A DNA stretch of 37,622 nt. Origin: a virus. Both the position numbers and the translations under genes were made by a program. This document shows positions 8,543 to 32,372 of the stretch, one piece after another. How positions within the stretch are numbered: position 1 is the first letter of the stretch; each line of letters begins with the position of its first letter. The stretch covers positions 1 to 37,622 of the IMG/VR virus record IMGVR_UViG_3300027971_000006. One strand, written 5' to 3'. The notes beneath the pieces were generated by a model. It did not search any database, was not told the origin of the DNA, and was given only the letters and a program-made list of their open reading frames with translations.

Positions 8543-8727
8543 AGATAGGAACAATAACATTTGGAAAATCAAGACCAGCACCAAAGATGGTTCTCGTGGA
8601 TGTGGACTACGACAAGAAGACAGGCGCAGAATTGTTTAAGACTGGAATGAGGCTTCTCAAGAAAGATAAGGAAGCTGTGATTGAATATGTGATAAAGAAA
8701 GCCTTGGAATACGGCATTAAGAAATGA
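8539..8727 (+). CDS. Small basic protein, unknown
   Basis: A 62-residue Lys-rich protein starting MKIGTITFGK. The start at 8539 overlaps the previous stop (ATGA), which I prefer to an in-frame ATG at 8494 lying within the upstream gene. The C-terminal half is a charged helix ending YGIKK. The stop again overlaps the next ATG. No family recognised. Confidence 0.55.
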   Translation: MKIGTITFGKSRPAPKMVLVDVDYDKKTGAELFKTGMRLLKKDKEAVIEYVIKKALEYGIKK

Positions 8728-9404
8728 AACGCGCATTAGTCACTCAAGCATTCGGAGACGATTGGCAAAAGATTTTAAGCATCACTCAGCCAAGGATGGA
8801 GGCGTATGCAAAGAAGTACGCGATTGACTTCATGGCAATTGACAAGCCAGTTACGCAGCCAGTTCAATACTCGAAGCTGGCAATCGGAAACATTATGCTC
8901 GCCAGGGGCTATGAGCAGGTCATGTTCCTAGACGCTGACGTTCTAGTGACAAACGACTGCGAGGATCTTGGTGGTCCTGACTCTGAGGGTAGTCAGCACT
9001 TCTTCTGCGCCTTTGACGAGGGGGAGTTTCTGGACAGGAAGCAAGGGATGGTGGATCTTGCGAAAGGTTTTGGCGGAAAGATCACGCCCAGGTTCTACGT
9101 CAATACTGGCGTATTCGTAGCGAGCAATAAGTTCCTTGGTTTATTTTCATGCCCTCCGTTTGGTTGTTACCCCAATCATTTTGGCGAACAAACCTGGATG
9201 AACATTCAAGCGCACTTGTGGGGCATGGAGCTGACTCCGCTCGACCCAGCCTACAACTGCATGACTAGCGTAGAGTCGCATTTTGGATTGGATAGGTACA
9301 AGGATGCCTACATTATCCACTACGCTGGACAATCTAACGATCTGGTTAAGTTAGCTGGCCAGATCCAAGAAGACGATGCCAAGCTGAAAGAAGCTGGTCG
9401 ATGA
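8724..9404 (+). CDS. Glycosyltransferase-like protein with DxD motif (GT-A fold)
   Basis: This 226-residue protein looks like GT8-type or nucleotide-diphospho-sugar transferases: an N-terminal Rossmann-like strand (KRALVTQAFG), YSKLAIGNIML, then the metal-binding FLDADVLV with Asp70 and Asp72, NTGVFVASNK for acceptor binding, and a late IIHYAGQS with the His typical of the family. It would transfer a sugar from a nucleotide donor. The acceptor is unknown: phage DNA, a surface glycan or a protein. It lies upstream of the oxygenase and methyltransferase genes, which permits a shared modification role (inferred). ATGA junctions on both sides. Confidence 0.7.
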   Translation: MKRALVTQAFGDDWQKILSITQPRMEAYAKKYAIDFMAIDKPVTQPVQYSKLAIGNIMLARGYEQVMFLDADVLVTNDCEDLGGPDSEGSQHFFCAFDEGEFLDRKQGMVDLAKGFGGKITPRFYVNTGVFVASNKFLGLFSCPPFGCYPNHFGEQTWMNIQAHLWGMELTPLDPAYNCMTSVESHFGLDRYKDAYIIHYAGQSNDLVKLAGQIQEDDAKLKEAGR

Positions 9405-9933: not shown

Positions 9934-10072
9934 TTTCATTTCGGACGTATTCAAGGTTGTGGCTTGGATTATATTGATCTCTTCAATACTCATTTCACTT
10001 CTGGCATTGAGCGCGTACATAGTCTTACAAATAGTTGACATCATAAAGGAGGTTATAAATGGAGGAAAATAA
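9920..10072 (+). CDS. Small single-pass membrane protein
   Basis: A 50-residue protein (start MQFVDFISDV) whose middle 28 residues are almost wholly hydrophobic (VVAWIILISSILISLLAL), giving one membrane span. It overlaps the previous gene by 14 bases, and its own last codons contain the AAGGAGG site of the oxygenase gene, which it overlaps by 14 bases. It could be a holin-like or a host-membrane-acting protein; nothing decides between these. Confidence 0.5.
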   Translation: MQFVDFISDVFKVVAWIILISSILISLLALSAYIVLQIVDIIKEVINGGK

Positions 10073-10628
10073 GTTCATTCAAAAGACGCTTACCGCATCC
10101 GTGGATCGGTACGTCCTAACGCCAAGCCAATGCGACATGATTCGAAACGATGCCGAGGTGATTGGCATGAAGCGCGCGACTGTGTTGAAAAAGAACGGAA
10201 AGACTAGAAATTCATTTGCGCGTACCTGCTCCTCCTGCTGGGTTCCGATGTCGCAGCATTACAAATGGCTGTACGCGATAATGGGAGAACTCACCGCATC
10301 GATTAACAGCGAGTACTGGAGGTTTGATATAACTGGAGCGCAGCAGTTCCAGATCCTGAGATACAATCCGCTCCAGCAGTTTTGGTGGCACTTCGACACA
10401 TTCTCTGGAAGTGACCGCAAGCTTACGGCGGTGGTCAACCTATCCGCTCCACATGAGTACCTGGGCGGAGGCTTGCAGGTAAAGGCGGACATAGACAACG
10501 CAAGGTTTATCCGCGAGCAGGGAGCAGGGTGCTGGTTTCCGTCTTACATCGAACATCGTGCGCGTGCGCCGATATGGGGAACACGCTGGGTGTTGGTGGC
10601 TTGGTATACTGGTCCTAACTGGAGATGA
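10059..10628 (+). CDS. 2-oxoglutarate/Fe(II)-dependent oxygenase (PKHD/prolyl-hydroxylase type)
   Basis: This 189-residue protein has the iron-binding triad of the double-stranded beta-helix oxygenases: WWHFDTF with His111 and Asp113, and the distal His166 in YIEHRARAP, followed by Arg176 for the 2-oxoglutarate carboxylate (IWGTRWVLVAWY). Between them NLSAPHEYLGGGLQV is typical of the PKHD or prolyl-4-hydroxylase branch common in phages. It hydroxylates an unknown substrate. The nearby cytosine methyltransferase and glycosyltransferases make modified DNA one option, though its motifs look less like TET/JBP enzymes than like protein hydroxylases. AAGGAGG precedes the ATG. Confidence 0.8.
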   Translation: MEENKFIQKTLTASVDRYVLTPSQCDMIRNDAEVIGMKRATVLKKNGKTRNSFARTCSSCWVPMSQHYKWLYAIMGELTASINSEYWRFDITGAQQFQILRYNPLQQFWWHFDTFSGSDRKLTAVVNLSAPHEYLGGGLQVKADIDNARFIREQGAGCWFPSYIEHRARAPIWGTRWVLVAWYTGPNWR

Positions 10629-12105: not shown

Positions 12106-12277
12106 GCTGGCGATGCAGGTGAAGAAGGAGTGGGATGAGAAGGGATGGAGATGGAAGCTATCCCTATCGGCTGGCGGATTTACCAGCGAGATACATTGCT
12201 ATGGAACTGCGGAGAATGAATATTTTAATTGCGTCAAGAACTTGGTTGATCAAGCATACCAGATGCAAAGCGTATGA
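12089..12277 (+). CDS. Small protein, unknown, upstream of the methyltransferase
   Basis: A 62-residue protein starting MKTKDELAMQ. The AGGAGG at 12078-12083 is five bases before this ATG, which I prefer to a GTG at 12083 that would overlap the site. It has an N-terminal charged helix, then a beta-rich stretch (WRWKLSLSAGGFTSEIHCYG). The stop overlaps the methyltransferase ATG (ATGA). No family recognised; it might be a partner of the methyltransferase, but only position says so. Confidence 0.5.
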   Translation: MKTKDELAMQVKKEWDEKGWRWKLSLSAGGFTSEIHCYGTAENEYFNCVKNLVDQAYQMQSV

Positions 12278-13161
12278 ATGAAAAGACACACCTCGACTTA
12301 TTTAGTGGGATCGGAGGATTTGCCTTGGCAGCCAAGTGGAATGGATATAGAACAGTTGGCTTCTGTGACAACGAACCCTACGCACAAGCAGTCCTCAAAA
12401 AGCATTGGCCAGAAGTGCCATGCCACAAAGACATCCGAGAAGTACGAGGCGAGCTATACGCAGGAGTCACTCTTCTCACAGGTGGATTCCCCTGCCAGCC
12501 ATTCTCCAATGCTGGGAAGCAAAGAGGCAAGAACGATGACCGCTATCTCTGGCCAGAAATGCTTAGGGTCATACGCGAAGCAAGGCCAACTTGGATCATT
12601 GGTGAGAATGTTGCTGGGATCGTCAATATGGAACTCGACCAAGTGCATATTGACTTGGAAGCGGAAGATTACGAAGTCGAATCGATCATTATTCCAGCTT
12701 GCGGTGTCGATGCCCCGCACAGGAGGAACAGAGTCTGGATTATCGGACGTAACAAAAACAACAATGTGGCCAACTCCGAGGGCCTGCGACTTGGAGGGTG
12801 GAGTGAGTCAAGCAACCAATATGGGGGGGGGTGGTACAGGGAGAATCAAAAGGGAGAAAGGTGGGGAGTCAAGTTGAAGGATGCTGTCCATTCTGCGGAA
12901 AGACTATGGCCGACTCCGAGCAGTCGAGACGGCAAGGGTGGGTACAGGGGGGGGCGAATGAGGAACGGAAAGATTTCCAGGGACACGCTCGATGTTGCTG
13001 TGCAGCACGAGGAGAATCAGGGGAAGCAGTCTGGCCAACTGAACCCAGAGTGGGTCGCTTGGCTCATGGGGTATCCGATAGGGTGGCTAAACTTAAAGGA
13101 CTCGGAAATGCCATCGTACCGCAAGTCGCGTCAGAAATCATCAGATGCATCAACCAAGTAA
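12274..13161 (+). CDS. C5-cytosine DNA methyltransferase (Dcm-like), C-terminus probably frameshifted
   Basis: This 295-residue product transfers a methyl group from S-adenosylmethionine to cytosine C5. Motif I is DLFSGIGGF (residues 8-16), motif IV GGFPCQPFS with the catalytic Cys, motif VI GENVAG, motif VIII PHRRNRVWII. Motif X, needed for cofactor binding, is absent from this frame. It appears instead in the frame ending at 13178 (LKGLGNAIVPQ). Between them lies a run of nine G at 12823-12831, and one added G would join the two. As written, this frame ends in SGQLNPEWVAWLMGYPIGW and stops 13 bases before the next gene rather than overlapping it. I think the canonical enzyme spans 12274-13178, but an assembly error, phase variation or slippage cannot be told apart here. 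Confidence 0.8.
   Translation: MNEKTHLDLFSGIGGFALAAKWNGYRTVGFCDNEPYAQAVLKKHWPEVPCHKDIREVRGELYAGVTLLTGGFPCQPFSNAGKQRGKNDDRYLWPEMLRVIREARPTWIIGENVAGIVNMELDQVHIDLEAEDYEVESIIIPACGVDAPHRRNRVWIIGRNKNNNVANSEGLRLGGWSESSNQYGGGWYRENQKGERWGVKLKDAVHSAERLWPTPSSRDGKGGYRGGRMRNGKISRDTLDVAVQHEENQGKQSGQLNPEWVAWLMGYPIGWLNLKDSEMPSYRKSRQKSSDASTK
12278..12877 (+). other. Alternative reading frame over the methyltransferase, protein-like
   Basis: A +1 frame of 199 codons starts with an ATG four bases inside the methyltransferase gene. Its middle reads like a recurrent phage protein often found with or fused to cytosine methyltransferases: CILTWKRKITKSNRSLFQLA, then SMPRTGGTESGL, then MWPTPRACD. It has no ribosome-binding site of its own apart from that of the methyltransferase. 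The same extra G at 12823-12831 that repairs the enzyme would carry this frame into the LWPTPSSRDGKGG and LNPEWVAWLMGYPIGW block of the annotated frame, giving a second continuous family-like protein. Real overprinted gene or fossil shadow is undecided. Confidence 0.35.
12823..12831 (+). repeat. G9 homopolymer at the frame switch
   Basis: Nine consecutive G separate the well-conserved N-terminal methyltransferase motifs from the split C-terminus. A second run of eight G occurs at 12947-12954. Such runs are prone to replication or polymerase slippage and also to sequencing error. Adding one G joins motif VIII with motif X in a single frame. Confidence 0.9.
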
Positions 13162-13178
13162 TGGAGGATAACAAATGA
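12831..13178 (+). pseudogene. Dislocated C-terminus of the cytosine methyltransferase (motif X frame)
   Basis: This frame opens at the end of the G9 run and reads to a TGA that overlaps the ATG of the next gene as ATGA, the standard junction of this operon. It contains SEQSRRQGW, EPRVGRLAHGVSDRVAKLKG and LGNAIVPQVASEII. The last is motif X, the final cofactor-binding motif of Dcm enzymes. No ribosome-binding site lies before it, so it is unlikely to be made alone. It is best read as the normal end of the enzyme, reached through a one-base shift. The fused product would be about 301 residues, normal for the family. Confidence 0.6.
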
Positions 13179-14317
13179 AACTATGGAAAAATAATTCACC
13201 AGCAGTCCACGTTGTGGACGATAATAAACTGTGGCCACGTTGTAGCTACATCCTGCCTGACGAGCTGACCAACCCTCCGTTCAACGAGGCGATCCCTGTT
13301 CCGCACAAGATCAAGCCGTACTACCCTGGGAGATCTGAGGGTGGGTCGACTGCCGTATACCGAGCTGGTGCAATCGGTGACGCAATCATGGCCACGGCAA
13401 TTGTGCGTTACCTAGTGGACACCTCTGGAGGTACAGTCGATATCTATTGTCCTGCTCGCAACATGGCGTTGTTCGCTGGCCTGGGTGCGAATGTATATCC
13501 GCTGCCACCCACCGAGGAAGCATGGGATTCATACTCAGCGCATGTTCCGCTCGATGATCTGTTCTCAGGTAAGGTTGGCAATACGGAACTAGGAACTGGA
13601 CCAGGTTGCCATTACGATAGGATTTATAACTGGATGGGAGCAGAGGGGATTGTGGCGGACATCTCTGGCAAGGTTGGAGATGTTAAGCTTGTCGATCCTA
13701 AGTACAAACGTCCTCACCTATACGTTGTCCAGCCTGACTACGAGGAGCTGAAGAAGATGGGACGCTTGCCATTGCCCAGCCCATACTTTGTCTACCACGT
13801 TTCGTCCTCTGGTCCTACTCGCACCTATCCGCCTCAGTTAGGCAAGCTGGCGGTGCAGGCGTTGCTGGAAGAGTTTCCGCAACATCACGCTGTAATCATT
13901 GGCTTGGATCGAGCAATCGATTTTCATGTCGATCATCCGCGAGTTGTCGATCTATTCAACGCGACATCCAGCGTGCGATCACTATTCCCAATTGTGCATG
14001 ATGCTGACTTTGTTGTCGCACCTGACAGCTCTGTCAACCATATGGCAGCAGGATTAGATACAGCGTGCGTCAGTCTATGGGGGTCATACGACCCAATGGA
14101 TCGGTGCAAGTATTATCCTAAGTCGTATCCAGTATTCGCACCTGACGTTTGCCCTCATGCCCCTTGCAGGCCACATGGCGCGCTACCGCAGGCCAAATGC
14201 AAGGACGCAAAGAATAAAACAAGTTTGACGCAGTATTGGTGTAACGCTCTTCGCAATATAACCGCCGATATGATTGTGGAGAACGCCAAGAAGGCGATGC
14301 AGTCAGAGAAGGTTTAA
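13175..14317 (+). CDS. Glycosyltransferase family 9-like (heptosyltransferase-like)
   Basis: This 380-residue protein has the GT-B look of ADP-heptose:LPS heptosyltransferases. The N-terminal domain has YRAGAIGDAIMATAIVRYL. The C-terminal domain has FVVAPDSSVNHMAAGL and VSLWGSYDPMDRCKYYP, the nucleotide-sugar site. A Cys-rich tail (CPHAPCRPHG and further Cys) is unusual and may bind metal. It could modify host surface sugars or, given the overlap with the cytosine methyltransferase (ATGA with the motif X frame), phage DNA. Phages with GT9 genes are known, but substrates are mostly not. It is the last gene of the tightly coupled early cluster. Confidence 0.7.
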   Translation: MKLWKNNSPAVHVVDDNKLWPRCSYILPDELTNPPFNEAIPVPHKIKPYYPGRSEGGSTAVYRAGAIGDAIMATAIVRYLVDTSGGTVDIYCPARNMALFAGLGANVYPLPPTEEAWDSYSAHVPLDDLFSGKVGNTELGTGPGCHYDRIYNWMGAEGIVADISGKVGDVKLVDPKYKRPHLYVVQPDYEELKKMGRLPLPSPYFVYHVSSSGPTRTYPPQLGKLAVQALLEEFPQHHAVIIGLDRAIDFHVDHPRVVDLFNATSSVRSLFPIVHDADFVVAPDSSVNHMAAGLDTACVSLWGSYDPMDRCKYYPKSYPVFAPDVCPHAPCRPHGALPQAKCKDAKNKTSLTQYWCNALRNITADMIVENAKKAMQSEKV

Positions 14318-30914: not shown

Positions 30915-32372
30915 ATGCCGAATTTTACAGCAGGAACCAGCTTTGGTGCAAACGACACAGTAACCAATACGAAGCTTAACGCTTTGATTGCTGACGCTGT
31001 AATCAACCCTGAGTGTGCATTAAGCATCAACTCTGGCACGATTGGGACGCTTTCCTGCACCAGGGGGACCATTGGAACCTTTAATAGCACAACTGGAACT
31101 GTTGCCACGCTAAATACCACTACTGGATCTGTCCAAACATTAAGTGCTGGCACATTGGCAACTGACCTTACTGGTGGAACGTATTCTGGATTAATCAATT
31201 CAAGTACTGGCACATACTCTGGATTAATCAATTCGAGTACTGGCACTTATTCTGGACTAATCAATTCTTCAACTGGCACTTATTCTGGATCAATCGGAAC
31301 AGCAAGAAGTTTGACCGCTGGAACAATTCAGACATTAACAGCGAGTACTCTTACTGGAACACTTACTGGAGGGACGTATTCTGGATTAATTAATTCAAGT
31401 ACTGGAACATATTCTGGATTAATAAACTCAACAACTGGTACATTTTCTGGATCATTGGGAACTTCATGCAATTTTACCGCTGGAACAATTAACAGATTAA
31501 CATCTTCAAGCAATGCAACAATATCTGGAATTACAGTAGGAACAGGTAGTAATAGTGGCTCTTTAAATACTGCCGTAGGAGCAGGATCTGTTCTTGGAAG
31601 TGGTACTGGAGGCTTTAATTCTGGATATGGATATTCAGCATTGGCATCAAGTACATCTGGAGTGGCAAATTGTGCCTTTGGATATAGGGCATTATTTTCA
31701 AATACAACAGGTGGAAGTTGCGTTGCGATAGGAGCTGCATCATTAGATTCAAATACGACATCAAATTTCAATATCGCAATTGGAAATTCTTCATTATATT
31801 TAAATAGTTCTGGAACAGGAGCAAATACAGCAGTTGGATACCAATCCATGTTTATAGCTACTGGAATGGCAAATTCATCTGCGCTTGGTGCAAACTCAAC
31901 AGTTACTGGATCAAACCAAGTTCAGCTTGGAGATTCTGCTACCACAACTTATGCATATGGAGCAGTTCAAAATAGATCAGATATTCGAGATAAAGCTGAT
32001 GTAAGAGATACAACGCTTGGTCTTGAATTTGTAAATGATTTACGCCCTGTTGATTTTAAATGGGATATGCGAGAGTATTACACGCCTGAGTTTGATGAAA
32101 ATGCAAATCCAGATATATACAAACTTTCAAATATTACTCACGATGGAAGCAAGAAGCGCAATCGATATCATCACGGCTTGATTGCCCAAGAGGTCAAGGA
32201 AGTTCTAGATAAGAATGGCATCGACTTTGGCGGATTCCAGGACCACAAAATAAGTGGTGGCGATGATGTTCTCAGCATTGGATACGGCGAGTTAATCGCA
32301 CCAATGATTAAAGCCATCCAACAACTCTCTGCCAAGGTAGACAGTCTAGAAGCACAACTGGCCAGCAAATGA
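30915..32372 (+). CDS. Tail fibre/spike with S74 intramolecular chaperone domain
   Basis: This 485-residue protein has a Thr/Gly-rich shaft with tandem TYSGLINSSTG repeats (residues 89-121 and 154-175), a YadA-like head region (about 240-340: NCAFGYRAL, NIAIGNSSL, NTAVGYQSM), and a C-terminal Peptidase_S74 chaperone. The S74 domain begins with SDIRDK: Ser355 and Lys360 form the autocleavage dyad (Ser-x4-Lys spacing). Cleavage would release about 130 residues after trimer assembly. The end LSAKVDSLEAQLASK is a coiled coil. It is the best candidate for the receptor-binding fibre. Confidence 0.85.
   Translation: MPNFTAGTSFGANDTVTNTKLNALIADAVINPECALSINSGTIGTLSCTRGTIGTFNSTTGTVATLNTTTGSVQTLSAGTLATDLTGGTYSGLINSSTGTYSGLINSSTGTYSGLINSSTGTYSGSIGTARSLTAGTIQTLTASTLTGTLTGGTYSGLINSSTGTYSGLINSTTGTFSGSLGTSCNFTAGTINRLTSSSNATISGITVGTGSNSGSLNTAVGAGSVLGSGTGGFNSGYGYSALASSTSGVANCAFGYRALFSNTTGGSCVAIGAASLDSNTTSNFNIAIGNSSLYLNSSGTGANTAVGYQSMFIATGMANSSALGANSTVTGSNQVQLGDSATTTYAYGAVQNRSDIRDKADVRDTTLGLEFVNDLRPVDFKWDMREYYTPEFDENANPDIYKLSNITHDGSKKRNRYHHGLIAQEVKEVLDKNGIDFGGFQDHKISGGDDVLSIGYGELIAPMIKAIQQLSAKVDSLEAQLASK
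31179..31439 (+). repeat. 33-bp repeats in the fibre shaft
   Basis: Three tandem copies (31179-31277) and a second group of two (31374-31439) encode TYSGLINSSTG. The period is 33 bp, in frame. Copies differ at synonymous positions. Such arrays can gain or lose units by recombination and change fibre length. Confidence 0.85.

Follow-up and report, generated by a model that had tools for sequence, protein, structure and literature searches.

How can a cytosine methyltransferase be made from a gene whose conserved motifs lie in different reading frames? The question is raised by the virus record IMGVR_UViG_3300027971_000006, which we analyzed over its whole length of 37,622 bases (hereafter, the window). 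On its plus strand, frame A (12274–13161, 295 amino acids) holds motifs I, IV (PCQ), VI (ENV), and VIII of a C5-cytosine methyltransferase (C5-MTase). Motif X (LKGLGNAIVPQVASEI, 13092–13139) lies in frame B, which is open to 13178 and whose stop overlaps the start of the next gene in an ATGA junction at 13175. An earlier note on this DNA had located the motifs and the junction in this way, had the two frames meet at a run of nine G, and took the open reading frame (ORF) that one added G would restore for a normal Dcm enzyme. The coordinates and the run of exactly nine G were confirmed, while the joined enzyme was not. Instead, we conclude with a probability of about 80% that the locus is a phage C5-MTase encoded as two overlapping genes, α and β, and that one slip in a G tract common to both breaks both chains.

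To place the window allele among its relatives, we compiled a census of 195 distinct loci from IMG/VR, GenBank phages, plasmids, and GTDB genomes. In 187 of them, motif IX is at +1 of motif IV, motif X is in frame with motif IV, and the α frame is stop-free; a single-frame arrangement was found in none of the 195. Over the 32,080 codons of this census, we counted no stops in the β frame as compared to 1,524 in the third frame. Among the IMG/VR relatives, motifs I, IV, VIII, and X all share one frame, and LMGYPxxW sits one frame off motif X in every relative having both. In each of the 57 intact genes, the +1 frame stays open over 152 to 359 codons, and the +2 frame is full of stops. The motifs are thus divided between two frames: α (frame 0) carries I–VIII and X, and β (frame +1), nested within it, carries tandem WPTP target-recognition domain (TRD) modules followed by IX. 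We found this layout in gene 58 of the Escherichia coli phage N15, in E. coli Bas71, Salmonella SEN4, Klebsiella LASTA and Seifer, Paenibacillus Shelly and Rani, and Lacticaseibacillus R9.1, as well as in genomes of Enterobacterales, Pseudomonas, Burkholderiales, and others. Motif X remains in the chain of motif I in 187 of the 195 relatives; in the window allele, the arrangement is interrupted by the tract.

We then determined which frame is under selection from the shares of substitutions at α codon positions 1/2/3, where α position 1 is β position 3. The shares were 0.22/0.19/0.60 around motif IV, 0.33/0.18/0.49 in VI–VIII, 0.74/0.14/0.12 in the TRD region between VIII and IX, 0.63/0.20/0.17 in IX, and 0.29/0.14/0.58 in X; 20 disjoint TRD pairs gave 333/67/64 substitutions. 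Selection therefore acts on α in I–VIII and X and on β in the TRD region and IX, with VI–VIII constrained in both frames. It follows that the region from VIII to X is not selected in the joined frame; the joined frame-0 product looks like a whole enzyme yet lacks the TRD and motif IX, which lie in the overlapping +1 frame. The conservation of both frames was also evident when the amino acids of one frame were fixed and the codons shuffled synonymously. Between ENV and VIII, no β stops were observed against 118 expected, and over the TRD, no α stops against 328 expected. Thus, α is kept readable across a region in which its own sequence counts for little, as one would predict if it has to extend to motif X.

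Family matches gave a consistent picture. Frame A matches PF00145 (E=1.9e-40, residues 7–165), and its α part matches phrog_363 (E=2.2e-63) and, by phmmer, M.HhaI (E~1e-17). In PHROGs, the α and β frames were independently placed in separate families, phrog_363 and phrog_1008. In the window, ORF A matches first phrog_363 (profile 53–251) and then phrog_1008 (180–281), with the switch at the G9 tract, whereas frame C (12536–12874) matches the N-terminal part of phrog_1008 and frame B the C-terminal part of phrog_363. This pattern is expected of one slip in a tract common to two overlapping genes. Two elements of the second gene had been overlooked by the earlier note: conserved coding in frame A past the G run, which reads WPTPSSRDGKGGYRGG...SGQLNPEWVAWLMGYPIGW and includes a TRD module (from 12907) and motif IX (13036–13086), and a third open frame (12536–12877), which holds the start of the second protein. 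The latter, frame C, overlaps α motifs VI–VIII, and in the window allele it leaves the β frame at the G tract to end at the stop 12875–12877. The predicted β chain has about 200 amino acids and consists of one to five tandem modules starting with W-P-T-P, differently assorted between relatives, and then motif IX. No β model was found in Pfam or NCBIfam. The motif IX segment gave a sub-threshold phmmer domain to M.HhaI 271–289 and an hhalign match (P=90.5, E=1.4e-6) to the single-chain enzyme of mycobacteriophage Phasih, which matches phrog_363 and phrog_1008 in one chain.

As to how β is made, we favor internal initiation, which in the window would occur near the candidate GAGG and ATG listed in Table 1. 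A Shine-Dalgarno-like sequence (SD) with a start codon in the +1 frame, 30–60 nt past motif IV, is present in 58 of 112 loci, as compared to 17 loci on average (24 at most) after synonymous shuffling. A universal β start at the AAT codon of ENV was also tested and does not hold across all loci. Alternatively, a single polypeptide could arise by programmed ribosomal frameshifting, with I–VIII read in frame 0, a shift to +1 for the TRD and IX, and a return for X; the order of the three selected segments is indeed that of the Phasih enzyme. We regard this as very unlikely, since it requires two shifts, canonical slippery heptamers occur in the β frame around IX–X in only 9 of 112 loci, α is stop-free through the TRD, and internal SD and start sites are enriched. 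It is harder still to credit that the joined frame-0 methyltransferase is the sole real product and the +1 frame a by-product of composition. Most records do annotate frame 0 alone, with I–VIII and X, but such a reading is contradicted by the substitution pattern of the TRD and IX, the lack of β stops, the presence of IX in β only, and the separate PHROG family.

We next examined the G tract. Between TAT and TGGTAC, the window has an interval of 9 nt, loci L002 (G10), L005, and L006 (both G9A) have one of 10 nt, and L003 and L004 (both G10A) have one of 11 nt. Loci with the 10-nt interval are in frame, while the window, L003, and L004 are out of frame, each leaving the frame at this tract; the earlier note was therefore right on the site of the break, which is where the frames part relative to intact homologues and with which the PHROG matches agree. 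A break near 13090 was ruled out, as the constant offset of one frame between LMGYP and motif X is the normal dual-frame layout. Only six contigs, the window among them, have this tract. The length of the tract varies among close relatives and changes the frame. The only homopolymers of at least 8 nt in the window are this G9 and a G8, both inside the methyltransferase gene. Across loci, 17 G runs of at least 8 nt were found in 62.7 kb of overlap region as compared to 2 in 781 kb of flanks, an excess that relatedness and Gly-rich modules explain in part. Out-of-frame loci made up 5 of the 10 with a G tract of at least 9 nt and 3 of the 185 without (Fisher p=6e-6, uncorrected for relatedness); the 10 loci represent five separate tracts, three of which have broken alleles. 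Frame breaks were also found at unrelated G9 tracts in L154, a metagenome-assembled genome (MAG), and in L157, an Enterobacter isolate assembly. The G tract is a slippage hotspot and probably acts as a phase-variation-like slippage site. Hence, the slippage proposed by the earlier note stands, while its single broken protein does not, as the G9 breaks two. Two further loci, L251 (1518–2197) and L112, are out of frame as well and have no long G tract.

In the window, the slip would join the N-terminal part of α in frame to the C-terminal part of β, leaving motif X and the N-terminal part of β stranded. Because the tract lies in both genes, neither α nor β is whole, and we infer from the sequence that this allele has lost enzyme activity. 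It is a real possibility, although the lesser one in our judgment, that an error in sequencing or assembly produced the G9 allele and that the two genes of the phage are intact, which would be compatible with the two-gene layout. The contig is metagenomic, the lesion is in a homopolymer, and relatives with the 10-nt interval are in frame. Against this, alleles of the wrong length were seen repeatedly, both shorter and longer, on two haplotypes that differ from each other (L003 and L004), and at the unrelated tracts in L154 and L157; as the last is an isolate assembly, not all broken-tract alleles are metagenomic. Permanent decay of a dispensable methyltransferase, with no reversible switch, would likewise fit two genes, and a decayed member does exist in an Arsenophonus endosymbiont (L170). 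We consider it unlikely for the window, where no lesion besides the tract was seen and open frames flank it on either side.

The two-gene layout has a close precedent in M.EcoHK31I, in which β is reported (Lee, Kam and Shaw, 1995) to lie within α in another frame, with chain sizes similar to those here. In this enzyme, which recognizes YGGCCR, the large subunit carries I–VIII and X and a second small polypeptide carries IX, while the predicted TRD was assigned to the large subunit (PMC3404938). The likeness we draw is one of layout. In contrast to M.EcoHK31I, the present systems are phage-borne, and their TRD is selected in the β frame and forms a tandem array of one to five modules. Because the layout matches and the TRD is assigned differently, we say that the window system would work like M.EcoHK31I, the closest known case, as a variant with its TRDs in β. 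Among split C5-MTases of the M.AquI type, we compared the mycobacteriophage pairs Roksolana 91/90 and Dorothy 71/72, in which the second chain is likewise in the +1 frame and has the TRD, IX, and X. There, as in M.AquI-type enzymes, X goes with β; here, it goes with α, and β is consequently nested inside α. The single-chain M.HhaI and Phasih have the same motifs I–X, all in one frame unlike here, and Phasih carries I–VIII, xPTP modules, a homologous IX, and X in one chain. We count Phasih, Roksolana, and Dorothy as intermediates in support of the two-gene reading. A further comparison is with the multispecific MTases of the SPbeta group (Trautner et al., 1996, cited in PMC12707154). These are single chains with several small TRDs in tandem; multispecificity in the present family would follow by likeness. 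As in phase-variable bacterial methyltransferases (mod and hsd genes), a simple repeat in a methyltransferase gene slips, a likeness based on tract-length variation between relatives; unlike in those genes, one tract here lies in two overlapping genes. Our searches, which covered open-licence literature, turned up no account of such overlapping genes in phages.

Taken as two genes, α would supply S-adenosylmethionine binding and catalysis and β target recognition, the two assembling into one enzyme, presumably a heterodimer, and several TRDs would imply several targets. Several points weigh against this reading. Where a locus allowed more than one combination of motifs, the census classifier favored the dual-frame layout, and the viral loci of the shuffle test were prefiltered for an open α frame. 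The window, L003, and L004 share one tract and the loci are related, so that counts are not independent. The β start codon is not universal across loci. No PDB chain was found for the β profile, and the motif IX call consequently rests on motif alignment and a single-chain homologue. AlphaFold 2 (AF2) models were too weak to place β on a TRD fold: the single-sequence model of ORF A had a predicted local distance difference test score (pLDDT) of 33, and that of one TRD module a score of 63, too weak for a fold search. More tentatively, and somewhat short of an even bet, phages and prophages may hold a large class of C5-MTases, mostly unannotated, that are overlapping-frame heterodimers. The nested β would then serve as an interchangeable array of TRDs, and the shared G tracts as contingency switches toggling both subunits by a single slip.

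If true, a specificity subunit of exchangeable modules would be hidden inside its own catalytic partner. A frame break in such an overlapping gene hits two proteins. N15 and Bas71 are laboratory phages with the intact layout, so the idea is directly testable. Usually one gene is annotated, and sometimes only the other frame, so that for many phage methyltransferases gene tables omit the half that recognizes the target. The annotators of Shelly and Rani listed β as an "internal gene." Overlap is penalized in gene calling (PMC6070908), and this may be why β is rarely listed. In the Cronobacter phage JC01 (L094), the coding sequence annotated as DNA methyltransferase (910–1884) is the β frame, and the catalytic α frame is unannotated.

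Table 1. Coordinates of the features of the α and β genes in the window.
Feature	Position	Strand	Basis
α, N-terminal part (frame A before the tract)	12274–12822	+	PF00145, phrog_363, phmmer to M.HhaI
Motif I; motif IV; motif VI (ENV); motif VIII	12295–12318; 12481–12507; 12601–12618; 12709–12741	+	Frame A
GAGG, putative ribosome-binding site of β	12524–12527	+	Sequence; SD and start enrichment among loci
β, N-terminal part (frame C, putative start ATG 12536)	12536–12877	+	phrog_1008 profile 61–150, E=2.3e-15; dual constraint in VI–VIII
TRD module 1 of β, MWPTPRACDLEGGVSQATNMGGG then WYRENQKGERWGVKLKDAVHSAERL, interrupted by G9	12764–12906	+	Module recurs with varied neighbors in relatives
G9 tract, point of the frame break	12823–12831	+	Comparison of interval length with relatives
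α, C-terminal part (frame B): linker of low conservation followed by motif X	12831–13178	+	phrog_363 profile 239–318, E=2.3e-9; X selected in the α frame
β, C-terminal part (frame A here): rest of TRD module 1, TRD module 2, motif IX, unconserved tail, stop 13159–13161	12832–13161	+	phrog_1008 180–281, phrog_31772, phrog_26627; β third-position substitutions
TRD module 2, WPTPSSRDGKGGYRGGRMRNGKISRDTLDVAVQ...	12907–13035	+	Common to N15, SEN4, LASTA, and Enterobacterales prophages
G8 run, the second G tract, within TRD module 2	12947–12954	+	Homopolymer scan
Motif IX, LNPEWVAWLMGYPIGW, β frame	13036–13086	+	Sub-threshold phmmer to M.HhaI 271–289; hhalign to Phasih

Elsewhere in the window, a glycosyltransferase-like gene (13175–14317) directly follows the methyltransferase, and another lies at 8724–9404 (Glyco_transf_9 near the cut-off; Glyco_transf_8). 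A 2OG-Fe(II) (2-oxoglutarate and iron) oxygenase-like gene (10059–10628) is located about 2 kb upstream of the methyltransferase, and the ORF at 30915–32372 has tail-fibre-like Gly/Thr/Ser repeats (STGTYSGLINS). Outside the window, Streptococcus phage phiARI0746 (L190) and Coprococcus phage NatCom_22372 (L194) belong to a different group of single-chain phage C5-MTases. Both have an open +1 frame of 160–180 codons over motifs I–VIII that ends in VCSLSDILE..VDERYFLS, possibly another conserved overlapping ORF.
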